From Myxococcales bacterium (GTDB lineage Bacteria > Myxococcota > UBA727 > GCA-2721815): a DNA stretch of 58,985 nucleotides. The number at the start of each line of letters is the position of its first letter. Within the stretch, counting starts at the first letter, position 1. Below are positions 48,979-58,985 of the stretch, one piece after another. The position numbers were made by a program, and so were the translations under genes. The stretch is from contig PBLQ01000022.1 in NCBI GenBank assembly GCA_002721815.1, positions 1 to 58,985 on the forward strand. The letters run 5' to 3'. The notes beneath the pieces were generated by a model that was given only the letters and a program-made list of their open reading frames with translations, ran no database searches and had not been told where the DNA came from.

Positions 48979-51900
48979 CTACTCGGCACAGCCCGCATTG
49001 TCTTCATACCCGATAACCACCCCTTCAGAGAGCGACTCGGTGTGATAGATGACGAAGGGTTCCCCGTCTTCGGTGGTGTCCTCGCGATTCGGATCTCCAA
49101 ATATCGGTTTATCACGGGTTACAGCGTGTCTGAAGGTTTTCGGGTTGGTCCCGTAGTTGTCGTGATCATAAATCATACGCGGGTTGTCGTTGTTGACCCA
49201 ACCCACTTTCTGGTATCCGCGATCAAACACGGCTGGATAAATACCGCTGCCAGCGCCATTGCCTAATAAACTACGTTCTACACTGGTGTTTTGGTGATCG
49301 TATCGATAAGCATAAGCATCGCCATCACCATTAATGAAAATAAAATTATTCGCACCGCTGTAACTCGAAGACTGGCTAAAGTGGAAGTTTTGCGCGGGGC
49401 TCACACTGGTGCCGTATGGCGAGAAATTGTTGCCATCACTGTTGGTGAATTGCGAATTGGGTATGGTCATGATGGTGCTGCTGCTCGTATCTTCACAGTA
49501 AGTCGTGTTGTAACACTGGTGATATATTTTCCAGCTACTGCTAGTGGTGAGTTTTTGTAACCAAGAGTAACCAAAGTTGTTGATGACGCTCAGCCCTCGC
49601 AGGTGGTTAAAATTCACGCCCAAGCTCCTTGTGATACCATCAATGAATGGGCTTGCCTCGGCGGTATAACCCGCCGACGAGGAATCACCCGTTAGGTGAT
49701 GCAAGCGATGGTAATAGGTTCCTGAATTCAGTCTTCTTGAGACCGTAATGAGGGCCGTGAACTCGTTGTTTGTTCCCCACTCCAAAGCGTCGATGGCGTT
49801 AATGGCCATGTAATAGCCATTTTGATTTTCAACTTCTGCCAGTTCAATGCTGGTTTGTTCAGTGGTGCCAAAAGGATCGGTGTACACCCAAAGTCGGGTG
49901 TTGGCTTCGTTATAGGTCTCGGTACCCATAGTGCTACAGCTGGGACCCAGTGCGGGGCTGGCGATTAACAACGCAGGTTCTTCATCTTTACCCGAACAGC
50001 TGGCATCTATAATTTGAGATTCGAAGATTTCCATATCTGTGGTATTGGCGCAAAGATCAAAGCTGGTGAGGACGGGACTCAAGGGCCGATATTCGTAGGT
50101 TCTTAAGTTGAGTAAGGCGTGTCGAGGAAACTGTACAAAGCGTACAAAACCGCTGGACACTTGCAGGTAGGCGGAATTCTTCACGCTCAAGTCTTTGAGA
50201 ATCGCGTATTCGCCACCATTACAGATTTGTTTGATTTCCAGATCGGTGGGGATGAAGAAACTCGAAATTTCTTCTGCGTACACTTGACTGCTCTCTCCGC
50301 GGTTGCCCGCTTTGTCCACGGCACGGATTTCAAGGATGTTATCACTGTCTTGCTCAAGATTGAATTCGATGGGGGCTTGGTTCACGGGAATATTGCTGCC
50401 ATTGGCATCGGTGGTTTTCCAATTACCACCGTTTTCTCGAACTTCCCATTTCCAAAAGTTGTCATCGAGCGAATTGGGATTGGTGCCGGGGGTGACCTCT
50501 GCGCATGAATGATTGGCGCCGATGATTTGTTCGTTGGTGACGCCAGGTTGCGCAGGCAGGGTTTGATCGAGTGTGATGGTGTCGCTCCGAACAGGGGACA
50601 CATTTCCCGCCTCATCCGTGAGGGCTACACAAAGCCTCTTTTGACCGTCGCCGTTGATGGCCAAAGTAAATCCTGAGGTGACCGCAATGGTATCGCTCAT
50701 TTGGGTGACGGAGCTGGGGCAAGTCAGGCTCCCAGGACTTGCCTTTAAAATATAATGGATCTCATGGGCCCCCTCAATATTCGTTATCTCTACGGTGACA
50801 ACGTTGGACTTGGTGTATTTGAGGTTACCACTGGCACTGTCATCTCCAGCTAGAAACGAGACCGAACCAATGGTGGGGCGAATGGTGTCTAAAATGACAA
50901 AAGCGCTCAAGGAGGCACTGGCATTGCCCGCACGATCCAAAACGCGGGCATACAAAGTTTTAAGGCCATCGAGGTCGCCGCCTTGATCGTAGCTGTTCAG
51001 AATGTAATTGCCCGCGGACGTAGCGCAACTGTAGGTTTGGGTTAGACTGGTATCGAACGCAGCGCTTTCAGATATTTCATAGGTGGTACACTCGCCGCGG
51101 CCTGTGTGCCCCAGCTGTACGAACGGCACGGTTGGCGAGTTGGTATGGATTTGGGTGGGGCCATTGGCATTGATTTGAAAACCGGTGAGTGTGAGAGGCT
51201 CGGTATCCACGCGAATTTCATCGGTGACGCAATCGGAGATGTTTCCTGCGTGATCTTTAAATATCACGGAAATAGATTGTGATTCATTGTCGGCGGGAGG
51301 CACCAGGATGCTGGTGTTCAAAATATTCGCTTCGGTGTCCCATATTTGCCAGGCGCCTCCGGTGCAGGCACTGTTGGTGCTGAGTTTAAACTCGGCGACG
51401 CCACTGGTGTTGTCTACAGCCGATACGGCCACATTTAGATTGGTGCGGTTTGTTTCTATGGCGTTGTTTTCAATGACAATGCTTGCCGAGGTGGGCGCTT
51501 GGTTGTCGACAGTGTAGCCAAGTTCATAGGGTGAGGATGTGTTTCCAGCGGGATCTTCACAAGTTATCTCCAAAGATGAAGCTCCTTCAGTGCTGGGAAG
51601 TAACACATTGAAAAGCGGGCTGTACGCACCATTGTACACCACATTATTAGCCGCATCGGTTACTTTGAGTTGGAGTTGATTGCCACCGGCCACCAGATCG
51701 TAACAAGTGGTCTCAATGGCCACCGCCGAGGTGTCTTGAATGTAACTGTTGCCAAAATTAATTTTGGCGCTGACAATGGTGGGGGGTGTCTCATCGAGGA
51801 TGGTCGAGACAGCCACACTGGCGCTGCGATTGCCTGCAATATCTGCGAATCGTACATAAATTGTGTAGGGACCTTCTTCGTTGCTTGGCATGGCGTAAAC

Positions 51901-53643
51901 GATTTCACTCTCAGAGGAATTGGTGATGAGTGCAGAAAAATCAGGTAGCCAACTGGCCTCCACCATATCTGCCGTATTGTTGTTGCTGAAAAGGACGGTG
52001 AGTTCGTCCGTATCGACAAATGCGGCCGCGGTGACAGCGGGGAGGGGTGGTGGCGTGCTATCGAGGGAGACGGACTGAACCAATTCTGTACTTTGGTTGC
52101 CGGCCAGATCTTTAAAACGGGCGTATATATTTTTTGAGCCATCGCCTTCAGGCAGGATGACGCTGGTGCTGGTGCTAAAGGTTTGCCAGGGGGCCTGTGG
52201 CAGACCGGCCGTGGTGCCCACTTTCATGAAATCAGCCCCCGTGGCGGCCAGTGTGACGGGCGCATTCAACGTATTGATCAGGCCAGAGCCATTCCCCACT
52301 GTTAAGGAAATGTTCTGAGGGCCTACGGTATCGATGATGGTGGCTCGGCCCCAAATGGCAGTCTCGTTACCGGCAAAGTCTCTCAGCTGAATTTGTAAGC
52401 CCACGCCCCCTTCGTTGGTGGGGAAAGTGATTGAAGAGTTGCTAACGAGAGGGGTCCATGGTTGAGAATCGATGTCGACATCACATTGGTATTCCTCTGG
52501 CTCTAAAACGCTGATGGCATCATTGGCATTGGGCACGGTGCAGAGGTTGGTGCGCATTTCGAGGGTTTCTGAATATTGATCTGAGGCCACGACTTGCAGC
52601 GATAAGGTATTGGATGTGCCATAAAGGTCACCTTGATTTAAAATAAGGGCTTCAAAGGCGGGTGGATCCGAGTCGCGAAGCAGGTGGAGCTGTTCCACTT
52701 TGGAGGTGTACCCGCATGCATCCTTGAACTGAAAAGAAATGGTGGTTTCACTGCTGGTGAGTTCTTCAGGTGCCAATGTGCGACTGCCGGAGAAAGCCGT
52801 GAAGATCGGACGGTCGCCTTCGGGCAGATCTCCAATCCAAGAGCGCATCTGGGTGGCATAACTGGCGACCATGTTGATGGTAAGGCTGTCATTTTGGAGG
52901 AACCAAGTGCGCCTTTGCGTGGGCTCGAACACTTGGCCAGTTCCCGGCAGAAAACTGACCTGCGTAGAGGCCAAATCAAAGGGGTCTAGGACAACAGTTT
53001 CCCTGCTTTCGTTCACCGACAGTGCACCGAGGCAACCACGCAAGCCTTCCCCCGAGACCACCGCTTCGTAGCGACCGATACCAACACTTTCAAGGGTGAA
53101 GGTACCGTCTGTGCGCACGAAAGCATCTTTGGCCACATTGTTGTAATTGACATTTTCTGCAGCGGCTTCACTGGTTTCGTTCGCGATGGGGACCAATTCA
53201 ATCAAAGTGCTGTCAGGAATGTTTGCGCCACCGGGGCGGTTCACTTGACCGCTCACGGTACCCTTGCCCACCACCAAAACAATTTCTGGAAGGTGAATGG
53301 AGCCTCCTTCGTTGGCTAAAATCCGGGTGCTGTAGGGTTCGTAGGCTGAGCCACTGGCATCGGAGGTGAGCCCGCCCACGTAGGTCACTTCAAGCTCGTA
53401 AACATCGGGCTCGAGGTCAGAGAGAGAGAATGATCCGTCTGCTTCAATGTTGGTGCCGCCTTCGCCTTTACCGATGTCAACGCGAACCCGGCTGGGATCG
53501 TTCAAGCCAGACACGGTACTGAGTATGACGCGGCCGGAGATGCTGGCGCGGGTGGTGGCACGGGTATCGTTTTGAGCAGAGGGGACGCCTAAGCTACAAG
53601 CAACCATGGATAAGATGGGTACCAATAAAAATGATCTCAACAC
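48979..53643 (-). CDS. Large (1554 aa) surface lipoprotein with tandem Ig-like repeats
   Basis: GTG at 53643 is preceded by AAGAAGGGGG six bases upstream and starts the signal MLRSFLLVPILSMVAC; the frame itself opens at a TTG 24 bases earlier. After the lipid Cys come two carboxypeptidase-regulatory-like beta domains (SGRVILS..., SGQVNRPG...), then a long series of bacterial Ig-like repeats with the recurring linker (L/I)D(T/S)T(P/R)P(T/P) and D(P/A)AGN segments (about residues 300-1150), and a C-terminal part of about 370 residues rich in Tyr, Asn, Ser and His with no repeat I recognise, possibly a propeller. An adhesin or cell-surface scaffold is likely. Confidence 0.87.
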   Translation of the reverse strand: MLRSFLLVPILSMVACSLGVPSAQNDTRATTRASISGRVILSTVSGLNDPSRVRVDIGKGEGGTNIEADGSFSLSDLEPDVYELEVTYVGGLTSDASGSAYEPYSTRILANEGGSIHLPEIVLVVGKGTVSGQVNRPGGANIPDSTLIELVPIANETSEAAAENVNYNNVAKDAFVRTDGTFTLESVGIGRYEAVVSGEGLRGCLGALSVNESRETVVLDPFDLASTQVSFLPGTGQVFEPTQRRTWFLQNDSLTINMVASYATQMRSWIGDLPEGDRPIFTAFSGSRTLAPEELTSSETTISFQFKDACGYTSKVEQLHLLRDSDPPAFEALILNQGDLYGTSNTLSLQVVASDQYSETLEMRTNLCTVPNANDAISVLEPEEYQCDVDIDSQPWTPLVSNSSITFPTNEGGVGLQIQLRDFAGNETAIWGRATIIDTVGPQNISLTVGNGSGLINTLNAPVTLAATGADFMKVGTTAGLPQAPWQTFSTSTSVILPEGDGSKNIYARFKDLAGNQSTELVQSVSLDSTPPPLPAVTAAAFVDTDELTVLFSNNNTADMVEASWLPDFSALITNSSESEIVYAMPSNEEGPYTIYVRFADIAGNRSASVAVSTILDETPPTIVSAKINFGNSYIQDTSAVAIETTCYDLVAGGNQLQLKVTDAANNVVYNGAYSPLFNVLLPSTEGASSLEITCEDPAGNTSSPYELGYTVDNQAPTSASIVIENNAIETNRTNLNVAVSAVDNTSGVAEFKLSTNSACTGGAWQIWDTEANILNTSILVPPADNESQSISVIFKDHAGNISDCVTDEIRVDTEPLTLTGFQINANGPTQIHTNSPTVPFVQLGHTGRGECTTYEISESAAFDTSLTQTYSCATSAGNYILNSYDQGGDLDGLKTLYARVLDRAGNASASLSAFVILDTIRPTIGSVSFLAGDDSASGNLKYTKSNVVTVEITNIEGAHEIHYILKASPGSLTCPSSVTQMSDTIAVTSGFTLAINGDGQKRLCVALTDEAGNVSPVRSDTITLDQTLPAQPGVTNEQIIGANHSCAEVTPGTNPNSLDDNFWKWEVRENGGNWKTTDANGSNIPVNQAPIEFNLEQDSDNILEIRAVDKAGNRGESSQVYAEEISSFFIPTDLEIKQICNGGEYAILKDLSVKNSAYLQVSSGFVRFVQFPRHALLNLRTYEYRPLSPVLTSFDLCANTTDMEIFESQIIDASCSGKDEEPALLIASPALGPSCSTMGTETYNEANTRLWVYTDPFGTTEQTSIELAEVENQNGYYMAINAIDALEWGTNNEFTALITVSRRLNSGTYYHRLHHLTGDSSSAGYTAEASPFIDGITRSLGVNFNHLRGLSVINNFGYSWLQKLTTSSSWKIYHQCYNTTYCEDTSSSTIMTIPNSQFTNSDGNNFSPYGTSVSPAQNFHFSQSSSYSGANNFIFINGDGDAYAYRYDHQNTSVERSLLGNGAGSGIYPAVFDRGYQKVGWVNNDNPRMIYDHDNYGTNPKTFRHAVTRDKPIFGDPNREDTTEDGEPFVIYHTESLSEGVVIGYEDNAGCAE

Positions 53644-53781
53644 CGGTGGCCCCCTTCTTTGAGTCAAAAGCTAAATTGGTGCCTCAGTAAAACAGTATCG
53701 CCCAAAAAATGGGTTTGGTCTTGTCTTACCTTCAAAAATGTAAGCTGGATCACACTGAAAGCGTCATTAAAAAATAATCAA

Positions 53782-55529: not shown

Positions 55530-56306
55530 ATGCAACATCTACTCATCAGCTCTATCTGTTTCCTTTTGCTGGCCGCCTGCGGCCCGGTTGATGGCAGTGA
55601 TGCTGATCCCGAAGTGGACGTCAACGCCAACGCGGATGGCGATTGTATGACCGACCTTGAAGAAGAAGAGCTCGGAACAGACCCACAAAAAGAAGATACG
55701 GATGGCGATGGCTTTAGCGACTGCGATGAACTTGATGCCGTCAGTGATCCAAACGACGCAGATGAGGTGCCGTATGCTTGCGGCTGGGCTCACAATAACC
55801 CAGGCAACATCCAGCCTACCGGTGCAGCCATTGGTGATGTGATGTACGAAGCGTCGCTCCCAGATCAATGTGGCGATGAGGTCAATCTGTGGGATTTTTA
55901 CGGCAAGTATCACGTCATCTACATGACAGCGGCCTGGTGACAAGGCTGCATGACGGAGGTGGGTCGCCTCCCAAGCATCAAAGACGAGTTTAACCAAGAT
56001 TCAGGGCTGGAAACTGGTATCGTTTTCTCCTTGTATGAAGCCACCAGTGGTGCACCACCTACAGCGGTCGACAGCGCAGCATACGCCAACCAACTGCTCG
56101 AGCACGGCTGGGTTGAGACCAACGACTTGCCGGTCTTGGCCGACGGAACGCAAACCTTGGCGACCCTAACGCCCATGACTCAAAATGCACATCCTGAACT
56201 CTGTGCAGTAACGCCTGAGTTAATGATCATCAGTTGCTATAATGGCCATGGAACCATTTATACGGCCCTTGAAGACATTCGTGAGCACGCGGCCGCTTCG
56301 GAGTAA
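55530..56306 (+). CDS. Predicted selenoprotein: thioredoxin-fold lipoprotein with W-Sec-Q-G-C motif
   Basis: Two open frames (55530-55940 and 55941-56306) are in the same reading frame, separated only by TGA at 55938-55940. Read through, they give one 258-residue protein: lipoprotein signal (LLAAC, Cys17), a Ca2+-binding thrombospondin-type acidic segment (about 30-75), then a redoxin domain with GDVMYEASLPDQCGDE, LWDFYGKYHVIYMTAAW, TGA, QGC. In relatives this site reads WCxxC, so TGA replaces the reactive Cys (residue 137), with the resolving Cys at 140. A hairpin fitting a bacterial SECIS follows at once. Selenocysteine insertion is thus the best reading; a point mutation or sequencing error is the alternative. 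It leads an operon with two cytochromes. Confidence 0.85.
55941..55977 (+). promoter_or_regulatory. Candidate bacterial SECIS element
   Basis: Directly after the in-frame TGA, GGAGG (55955-55959) pairs with CCTCC (55967-55971) around loop TGGGTCG; a T-G pair can close it to loop GGGTC. A lower stem TGC (55947-55949) with GCA (55975-55977) extends it across an internal loop. The apical loop starts about 20 bases after the TGA and holds a G followed by a G-U pair, in line with the known E. coli fdhF element (G23-U24) and with general bacterial SECIS rules. Folding was done by eye. Confidence 0.72.
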
Positions 56307-56308
56307 AC

Positions 56309-57382
56309 TTGCTAAGGCGTGCATCGCTGCTTCTGGTCATTCTCTTTGTTTCTTCCTGTGTCATTGGCGACCCGTTATCTGAAGGCGAGTCAGAACATGA
56401 TCCGATTGCTCCCACAGAGGCTCACGAGTCCTCTCGGGTGGACCGTTGTACCAATAGCTATGGCGTGCTTACCGAGCTTCCTCAATTATTGTCTCAAACA
56501 GGTCTGTATGCGGACATCCAAAATAAAGAAGTTCACGATGCCCTATGGGCGTTCGTTCCCGAATTTCAATTGTGGTCTGACACCGCCGATAAACAGCGCT
56601 GGATTTACGTTCCCGAATGTGACCCCATCGACACCTCCAATATGGACGATTGGTCATTCCCCGTGGGGACGCGTTTTTTTAAGGAGTTTTCGGTAAATGG
56701 TCAACGCATCGAAACCCGGCTTATTTTAAGAACGGGCGAAGGCGCCTACGATTTCCTGTACGGGACTTACGAATGGAATGACGATGAATCGGAGGCCTCT
56801 TTAGCGCCTTCGGAAGGGGTCTTGGAGGCGAAGGGCACTTCCCATGATATTCCCAGCGAGGCTCAGTGTCGTCGATGTCACGGGTCGCATCCCGATAGGG
56901 GCGGTAGGCCATCTCGTGCGCTGGGTTTCTCGGCCCTGCAACTGAACCATGATGGGGCAGGTATTCGCCTCGATGATTTGGTGGCGCAAGGGCGCCTGTC
57001 CCACGCACCTGAAGGCGCGCTGACGTTTCCAGGCAATGATGTGGAACGACAGGCGTTGGGCCATTTACATGTGAACTGCGGGGTTTGTCACAATGCGACC
57101 CGCGATGGGGTCCCCCAAACCGACATGAATTTATGGGTCAATGTAAACCAAACCACCGTTGAAGGCACGTCGACCTATCTCACCGCGGTGGGAAAGGCCA
57201 ACGAGATTTTCAACGATCAAAACGTATCGGCCCGTATCCAGCCCGGCCAACCGGATGTCAGTTCTATCATTTATCGAATGAGTCACCGGGGAAACAATGC
57301 ACAGATGCCGCCTTTGGCCACCAAAGAAGTGGATGAGACTGGGGTGGAAGCGGTGAAGGCATGGATATTGAGTTTGCCATGA
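56309..57382 (+). CDS. Dihaem c-type cytochrome lipoprotein
   Basis: The start is TTG at 56309 with GGAG about five bases upstream, two bases after the selenoprotein stop. The 357-residue product has a lipoprotein signal ending in VSSC, then a domain with NSYGVLTELPQLL, FQLWSDTADKQRWIYVPE and FPVGTRFFKEF, followed by two haem sites CRRCH (Cys187) and CGVCH (Cys257). The first half resembles the SO2930/HNE_0200 family of cytochrome-linked proteins. It is exported and anchored by lipid, where it probably carries electrons at the outer membrane. It overlaps the next gene by four bases (ATGA). Confidence 0.88.
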   Translation: MLRRASLLLVILFVSSCVIGDPLSEGESEHDPIAPTEAHESSRVDRCTNSYGVLTELPQLLSQTGLYADIQNKEVHDALWAFVPEFQLWSDTADKQRWIYVPECDPIDTSNMDDWSFPVGTRFFKEFSVNGQRIETRLILRTGEGAYDFLYGTYEWNDDESEASLAPSEGVLEAKGTSHDIPSEAQCRRCHGSHPDRGGRPSRALGFSALQLNHDGAGIRLDDLVAQGRLSHAPEGALTFPGNDVERQALGHLHVNCGVCHNATRDGVPQTDMNLWVNVNQTTVEGTSTYLTAVGKANEIFNDQNVSARIQPGQPDVSSIIYRMSHRGNNAQMPPLATKEVDETGVEAVKAWILSLP

Positions 57383-58985
57383 ATCGTGTATTGCCTCCAT
57401 GGCCCCTGACAGGCGTCTTGATGTCTTTACTGGGTCTGTCGGGCGCCTGTCCGGCCGAAAATACCTCGGGATTCGATGCGGGACCCGCTATTGAGCTGCC
57501 TGCCGAACCGTTCGATGCTGGCACTGGCCCAACTCCCTTTCTAGAGGTCAGTGGGGTGGTGGTGGATCAAAACAATGCGCCCGTGGCGGGTGCATGGGTC
57601 ATGCAGGGGGGGCGTGCTGAAGAACGGATTCTCACCGAAGATGACGGCTCTTTTACCTTCGTGCTCGAGGATCCAGGGTGGGGGTTATCAGTCTTGGTGG
57701 CTGCCAAGCCCGGATACCGCGCCATTGGCATGGAGCACTTCATGCCTGGGATGCCGGTCACTTTAACCATTCATGAACTCGCTGCGCCGGACAATGAAGA
57801 ATATATCTATGAAGAGCTGGGAGATGGGTATGATATCGACAAAGAAGACTGCACCCATTGCCATGCAATCTTAGTGCGTGAATTCTTGGATTCAAAACAT
57901 GCCCAGTCTACACGATCACCACTCTTGCAAGACCTTTATGCAGGTGTGAACCGAACTTTTGAAACCCAAGCCAGTTGTGAAAATGCTGGGGGTGTTTGGC
58001 GTCAAGGATTGAGCCCCGGTACCGAGGATACGCCCCTAAACAAATGCTATATTGGGGGTGGTGTCTTGGGTGACCTGAATAACGGCTGTGGCGGCGAAAA
58101 CCAATCAGCCTGTGACGATCCTGTAATCAACCCAGAGGCGGCACCGACTGTTTTCGGCAGTTGTGCAGATTGCCATGCGCCTGGCATCAATGGGGTTGCC
58201 GGAGGGCGAAACCTTCATGAGGCAACAGGCTTGGCCTATGAAAAAGGCGTCCACTGCGACGTCTGTCACAAGGTAAAAGACATCGATATGAGTCAACCGC
58301 CTGGTGTGGGGCAGCGGCTGGTCATGGGACGCCCCGGAGAAGAAGGATTTAATGTATTTAAGTGGCGCCCAGTCTATTTCGGCCCATTGATCGATGTACC
58401 CATCGTGGCCATGGGGGGAAGTTACCAGCCCAAATTCAATGAAGCGGTGTTTTGTGCCGGTTGCCATCAACAAGAGCAGCCAGCGCTTTTGCCCAACGAG
58501 AGTTTGGACAACGAAAAATGGCCGAAGGGTCTGCCCATCCATGCAACTTATGAGGAGTGGTTGGATGGCCCGTACAACCAAGAAAGCACTGCATGTCAGT
58601 TTTGTCACATGCCCGAGCGTTACGGGCGAGCCAATGCGACGGATTTAGGGACCGTTGAGAACCAGAGCATCATGTTCGGTTTTGTGCGAGAACCAGAAGA
58701 TAACCGCCAGCACATTTTTCGCAGTCCCCTACACGGCGACCCACGGCTCATCGACAAGGCGTTGTACACCAGCATCAATCTAACCACTGAAGGGTCATCA
58801 TTGGGTGCCACCGTCAGTGTGTCAAATGTTGGCTGCGGTCACGCCATTCCCACGGGCGAACCCATGCGTTCTTTGATTATGGTGGTCGAAGCCACAACCG
58901 AGAACTGCGGGCAGTTGATTGCAACCGGTGGCATGACTTTATCAGACACTGCTGGCATGTTGGCGGAGGGTGTCGAGGGCGAACA
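57379..58985 (+). CDS. Multihaem c-type cytochrome (3' partial)
   Basis: The frame is open from the ATG at 57379 to the window end (535 complete codons), so the stop lies outside. An export signal ends near GLSGAC (probable lipoprotein). After a DAG-containing linker comes a carboxypeptidase-regulatory-like beta domain (LEVSGVVVDQNNAPVAGAWV), then five CxxCH haem sites at Cys158 (CTHCH), Cys262 (CADCH), Cys293 (CDVCH), Cys359 (CAGCH) and Cys406 (CQFCH), and a GCGHAIPTGEP segment of the kind seen in decahaem-type cytochromes. More haem sites may follow. It is coupled by ATGA to the dihaem gene. Expected role is electron transfer at the surface or periplasm. Confidence 0.87.
   Translation, partial: MNRVLPPWPLTGVLMSLLGLSGACPAENTSGFDAGPAIELPAEPFDAGTGPTPFLEVSGVVVDQNNAPVAGAWVMQGGRAEERILTEDDGSFTFVLEDPGWGLSVLVAAKPGYRAIGMEHFMPGMPVTLTIHELAAPDNEEYIYEELGDGYDIDKEDCTHCHAILVREFLDSKHAQSTRSPLLQDLYAGVNRTFETQASCENAGGVWRQGLSPGTEDTPLNKCYIGGGVLGDLNNGCGGENQSACDDPVINPEAAPTVFGSCADCHAPGINGVAGGRNLHEATGLAYEKGVHCDVCHKVKDIDMSQPPGVGQRLVMGRPGEEGFNVFKWRPVYFGPLIDVPIVAMGGSYQPKFNEAVFCAGCHQQEQPALLPNESLDNEKWPKGLPIHATYEEWLDGPYNQESTACQFCHMPERYGRANATDLGTVENQSIMFGFVREPEDNRQHIFRSPLHGDPRLIDKALYTSINLTTEGSSLGATVSVSNVGCGHAIPTGEPMRSLIMVVEATTENCGQLIATGGMTLSDTAGMLAEGVEGE

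Follow-up and report, generated by a model that had tools for sequence, protein, structure and literature searches.

The window, i.e., the whole stretch of 58,985 nucleotides that was analysed, belongs to contig C21, in a genome of 4.6 Mb that is 98% complete and assembled in 74 contigs. On its forward strand lies a gene read as one frame from the ATG at 55530 to the TAA at 56304-56306, with the TGA at 55938-55940 as the sole interruption, and followed by two genes of c-type cytochromes (Table 1). When the TGA is translated as selenocysteine (Sec, U), the region 55530-56306 gives a protein of 258 residues with the single UGA at residue 137, in the surrounding ...YMTAAW-U-QGCMTEVG..., so that the redox motif within W-U-Q-G-C opens with the TGA. 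Under translation table 11 the same frame falls apart into two ORFs, one of 136 aa at 55530-55940 and one of 118 aa at 55950-56306. The preliminary description, which had seen here two halves of one gene in the same frame with only a TGA between them, had placed this TGA at the reactive first Cys of a WCxxC motif and had expected two ORFs from an ordinary annotation, was exact on all these points. Because the gene would ordinarily be annotated as two fragments, both the protein and the cassette that it opens could be overlooked.

Table 1. Features of the TGA-containing gene and of the adjoining cytochrome genes (positions in the window)
Feature	Position	Strand	Basis
Predicted selenoprotein gene, Sec137 by TGA read-through, 258 aa	55530..56306	+	One frame; G187 orthologue shares the TGA codon
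Signal peptide and lipobox (LAAC; Cys17 = predicted lipidation site)	55530..55580	+	Direct sequence reading; LSSC at the equivalent place in the G187 orthologue
Acidic DxDxDG repeats, TSP3_bac (Ca2+-binding type) stalk	55629..55769	+	PF18884 31.1 bits, cut-off 25
Thioredoxin-fold (AhpC-TSA/TlpA/ResA-like) domain, spans the TGA	55830..56303	+	PF00578, AlphaFold2, Foldseek
Active site W-U-Q-G-C	55935..55949	+	TGA (predicted Sec137) 55938-55940; resolving Cys140 55947-55949
Predicted bSECIS upper stem-loop GGAGGUG-GGU-CGCCUCC	55955..55971	+	7 bp; bSECIS model, G187 orthologue
Diheme c-type cytochrome lipoprotein, 2 CxxCH, SO2930-like, second cassette gene	56309..57382	+	TIGR03806 153.5 bits; CxxCH count
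Five-CxxCH multiheme cytochrome, CarboxypepD_reg-like domain, third cassette gene	57361..58985	+	Continues to contig position 59580, past the window end

The lipid-anchor N-terminus and the acidic stalk of the Ca2+-binding type that had been proposed were both borne out, the former by the LAAC lipobox in the sequence and the latter by the TSP3_bac match above its cut-off; the protein is probably lipidated and held at the membrane outside the cytoplasm. The AhpC-TSA profile (PF00578) recognised only the read-through protein, with 30.3 bits against the Pfam cut-off of 26, and the profile search gave no redoxin-family match for either the 136-aa or the 118-aa half alone, therefore the domain spans the TGA. 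The AlphaFold2 model (nine family members; mean pLDDT 84.6) has a strand at 127-134, then U137 immediately before the helix 138-144, and this modelled placement is the usual active-site geometry of thioredoxins. Structures of B. subtilis ResA were the best Foldseek matches (E 1.5e-08, target TM 0.71) and also the best PDB matches of the family profile, with an identity to the window protein of only 14-20%, and peroxiredoxins were also among the strong Foldseek matches. The protein stays well below the curated cut-offs of both ResA (NF002854, 14.1 bits vs 170) and TlpA. No match to it was found in PHROGs, and as a query it hit nothing among the viral contigs and only look-alikes of the TSP3 stalk among the genome contigs.

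The hairpin noticed right after the TGA proved to have a 7-bp stem and the loop GGU, with a TGA-to-loop spacing of 21 nt, an energy of -13.5 kcal/mol, and weaker lower pairings that extend to about 55979. At the same place in the orthologue from G187, a genome of the same phylum and another family, lies the hairpin UCGAGGC-AGGUC-GUCUCGA (7 bp, 20 nt spacing, -13.7). Both fit the bSECIS model as it is given in PMC13188914, with a loop of 3-9 nt having G in the first two positions, a stem of at least 4 bp, a spacing of 16-37 nt and an MFE of -7.5 or lower. The model was passed by all six TGA genes described below and by the control, E. coli fdhF, but it is loose, with about 18% of ordinary in-frame positions passing it. 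Accordingly, the weight was laid on the synonymous-recoding test, on the conserved place and loop, and on a compensatory pair change. Thus, recodings of the same peptide that were equally strong made up 0.7% in the window (99.3% being weaker) and 0.3% in G187, and one outer stem pair differs between the genomes as a double compensatory change, from G-C to C-G. The SECIS families of Rfam did not match the window hairpin even at relaxed thresholds, while the fdhF control was matched; the SECIS call therefore rests on the generic model, the recoding test and the orthologue. In comparison with the E. coli fdhF SECIS (Rfam SECIS_2), the loop GGU(C) is shared, being 18 nt after the UGA in fdhF, 20 nt in G187 and 21 nt in the window, whereas the window hairpin is set apart by the missing Rfam match, and a counterpart of the bulged U17 was not recognised in it.

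The machinery for selenocysteine insertion is complete in the window's genome, where all of the genes selA, selB, selC and selD, named beforehand as those to search for, were found. The tRNA-Sec scored 71.7 bits vs the gathering score of 47 and has the anticodon tca (UCA), SelA 425.9 bits, SelD 418.9 bits, and SelB 270.4 bits at a cut-off of 242.25, the last also with the winged-helix domains PF09106 and PF09107. On contig C51 the tRNA-Sec gene forms a cluster with selA and selB, directly upstream of which there are genes that look by eye like those of a kynurenine 3-monooxygenase and a 3-hydroxyanthranilate dioxygenase (L024 3823-5713). The tRNA-Sec was detected in 138 of the 195 genomes searched in the phylum, including G187.

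A clear orthologue was present in one other genome among the 195 searched, G187, with 55% identity in the alignment, the TGA at the same codon and the same motif W-U-Q-G-C, so that the UGA-containing gene recurs in another organism. The redoxin-like similarity had been said to continue past the TGA, and it does, with 52% protein identity over 113 aligned codons, in which 75% of the third positions differ and 34% of the first and second, all gaps being whole codons; such a third-position bias, together with the whole-codon gaps, indicates purifying selection on the protein beyond the apparent stop. The orthologous group was found in only these two genomes, and a close Cys-containing orthologue was not found among the 195 searched; the expected alternation of Cys and Sec at residue 137 is seen at this column in the wider family. 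Thus, the genomes examined contain about 40 related redoxin domains, six of them with a TGA that is aligned in every case to the first Cys of CxxC (WUQGC and WUGSC twice each, WUGYC, WUPVC), and the remaining domains with a recognisable motif are paralogues with Cys at the same position (e.g., WCGPC), i.e., the in-frame UGA corresponds to the catalytic Cys of the homologues. Among the 17 redoxin-profile genes of the window's genome, two are interrupted, each by a single internal TGA, and the other 15 are open throughout. With six Sec candidates from two genomes, the exchange of Sec and Cys would seem to recur in this redoxin family within the phylum.

The second interrupted gene of the window's genome encodes another TSP3-redoxin lipoprotein (L026 1438-2157, contig C58), with the TGA at the same active-site position in the motif WUGSC. 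It is followed by the gene of a beta-barrel-like protein, and the WUGSC copy of G187 also has behind it a gene that by eye resembles this one (L041 7781-8923, L039 2335-3201). The gene with WUPVC (L082 3-1343, G187 contig C209) combines N-terminal repeats looking like a beta-propeller with a C-terminal redoxin domain, and its SECIS-like loop, AGGUCU, matches the loop region of fdhF.

Taken as one intact gene, the locus almost certainly has selenocysteine inserted at its UGA, in the active site of the product; from the sequence evidence, the insertion of Sec at residue 137 is predicted with very high confidence, and the joint statement that the product is a selenoprotein with a redox role of the thiol/disulfide type is made with hardly less. 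The simplest objection, that TGC or TGT was misread as TGA in sequencing or assembly or that a recent nonsense mutation has left a pseudogene, may appeal to an assembly fragmented into 74 contigs and to the single base change that would be enough; chance, however, is not reasonable, because the same codon is TGA in the orthologue from another family, an independent case that in practice refutes the objection. With this orthologue, the SECIS-type hairpins and the six active-site TGAs, such an error is very unlikely, and the paralogue whose TGA falls at the equivalent position, the codon-wise conservation downstream and the full sel machinery stand against it as well. The continuation of the frame past the TGA would also be expected if the codon were read as tryptophan or by generic stop-codon readthrough, but TGA is an ordinary stop in this genome, ending 18 of 53 sampled ORFs of at least 200 aa, the six TGAs are all aligned with the active-site Cys and not with Trp, and both the insertion machinery (tRNA-Sec, SelA, SelB) and a SECIS-like hairpin are at hand, which makes this reading extremely improbable. 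It is hardly credible, too, that two separate proteins are encoded, a short TSP3 lipoprotein and a C-terminal protein initiated independently, for the TGA would cut the thioredoxin fold between the central strand and the active-site helix of the AlphaFold2 model and neither half has a redoxin-family match; the ATG 10 nt past the TGA (55950) could serve such a start and a truncated product is expected under selenium shortage, but that Met is replaced in the G187 orthologue (QGCTVEAG).

The gene had been called a probable new selenoprotein, of which the word "selenoprotein" is supported and the word "new" stands in part. UxxC/UxxU Prx-like thiol:disulfide oxidoreductases with the PF00578 fold are listed among the predicted selenoprotein families in Table 1 of PMC13188914, and the window protein shares with them the PF00578 domain, above the cut-off when read through, the UxxC motif (U-Q-G-C) and the SECIS-like hairpin after the UGA. 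Since such proteins are already listed there, the case is one of a new subfamily or architecture and not of a new principle: UxxC selenoproteins of the thioredoxin fold are known, and what is new is the lipobox/TSP3 architecture with the cytochrome operon, a difference drawn from the description given there of the family, which has WP_010940744.1 as its reference protein. Other Sec-containing families of the thioredoxin fold are represented in NCBIfam by NF041054 (ResA-like WAxxUGC motif protein) and NF053656 (TUGYCR motif thioredoxin-fold (seleno)protein), but none of the NCBIfam selenoprotein models recognises the window protein at its cut-off; NF041054 gave no match to it and 34-40 bits to the paralogues L026 and L035 vs the cut-off of 300, and NF053656 gave 12.6 bits vs 100. 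In the open-access full-text literature, no description of a TSP3-lipoprotein selenoprotein or of the cytochrome cassette was found. A subfamily of TSP3-repeat lipoproteins is added to the bacterial selenoproteome, and its conserved gene context offers a testable link from selenium to c-type cytochromes.

The diheme cytochrome gene starts two nucleotides past the stop of the selenoprotein gene and is overlapped by the pentaheme gene. Its match to the SO2930 family model TIGR03806 is below the cut-off of 313.3, and by sequence the protein is classed as a relative and not as a member of that family. In G187 the same three genes follow in the same order (selenoprotein, diheme, pentaheme), with 2 and 5 CxxCH motifs. 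At 18 other loci of the diheme cytochrome no redoxin, with Cys or Sec, was present within about 1.5 kb; therefore, the cytochrome does not generally need a selenoprotein partner, and inference on the cytochromes is confined to two genomes. Both selenoprotein-bearing genomes share the cassette, which does not generally accompany the diheme cytochrome.

ResA acts on apocytochrome c by reducing its haem-binding disulfide, and CcdA recharges the enzyme (PMC3884852). With ResA, TlpA and CcmG the window protein has in common the fold, with ResA as the best Foldseek match, the profile similarity, the probable membrane-anchored extracytoplasmic location and the adjoining genes of c-type cytochromes; it differs from them by a Sec that replaces the first Cys, by a lipid anchor instead of a TM helix, and by the stalk of the Ca-binding type. 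As ResA acts on apocytochrome c and cytochrome genes adjoin, a cytochrome-linked reductase is suggested as the role of the protein, with a chance somewhat below even. In the proposed mechanism, SelB with Sec-tRNA(UCA) would recognise the hairpin 55955-55971 and insert selenocysteine at the UGA 55938, and the product would be exported and lipid-anchored on Cys17, the mature protein joining an acidic, calcium-binding stalk of the TSP3 type to a ResA/TlpA-like thioredoxin domain with the redox pair U137-Q-G-C140. The selenol would attack a substrate disulfide, the mixed selenenylsulfide would be resolved by Cys140, and the oxidised enzyme may be recharged by a membrane reductase of the DsbD/CcdA type; a transmembrane protein of this type was found in both genomes. 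The most likely clients would be the two c-type cytochromes encoded directly downstream, the CxxCH cysteines of which need reduction for the attachment of haem, both the clients and the redox direction being inferred. It is proposed more tentatively that a lipid-anchored, calcium-stalked selenoprotein of the ResA type is dedicated to the co-encoded diheme and pentaheme pair as a Sec-dependent module for cytochrome maturation or coupled to cytochromes; if so, an extracytoplasmic electron-transfer system would be controlled, in its assembly or in its use, by a selenium-dependent step.

The main functional rival is a peroxidase using cytochrome electrons, i.e., a real selenoprotein of the Prx-like kind fed by the neighbouring cytochromes or by the periplasmic thiol pool. 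The AhpC-TSA nature of the Pfam match and the peroxiredoxins among the strong Foldseek matches speak for it, and the adjoining cytochromes could donate the electrons; the synteny in two genomes fits both a cytochrome reductase and an enzyme that takes electrons from cytochromes, and cannot tell them apart. However, the protein resembles ResA/TlpA in its motif, UxxC, while the Sec peroxiredoxins listed in PMC13188914 have TxxU, and ResA is the best match by both fold and profile, which leaves the peroxidase the less probable reading, though one to be kept in mind beside the reductase. Elsewhere in the window, the minus strand at 48979-53667 encodes a putative surface lipoprotein of 1562 aa, with an N-terminal lipobox of the VACS type and many repeated domains.
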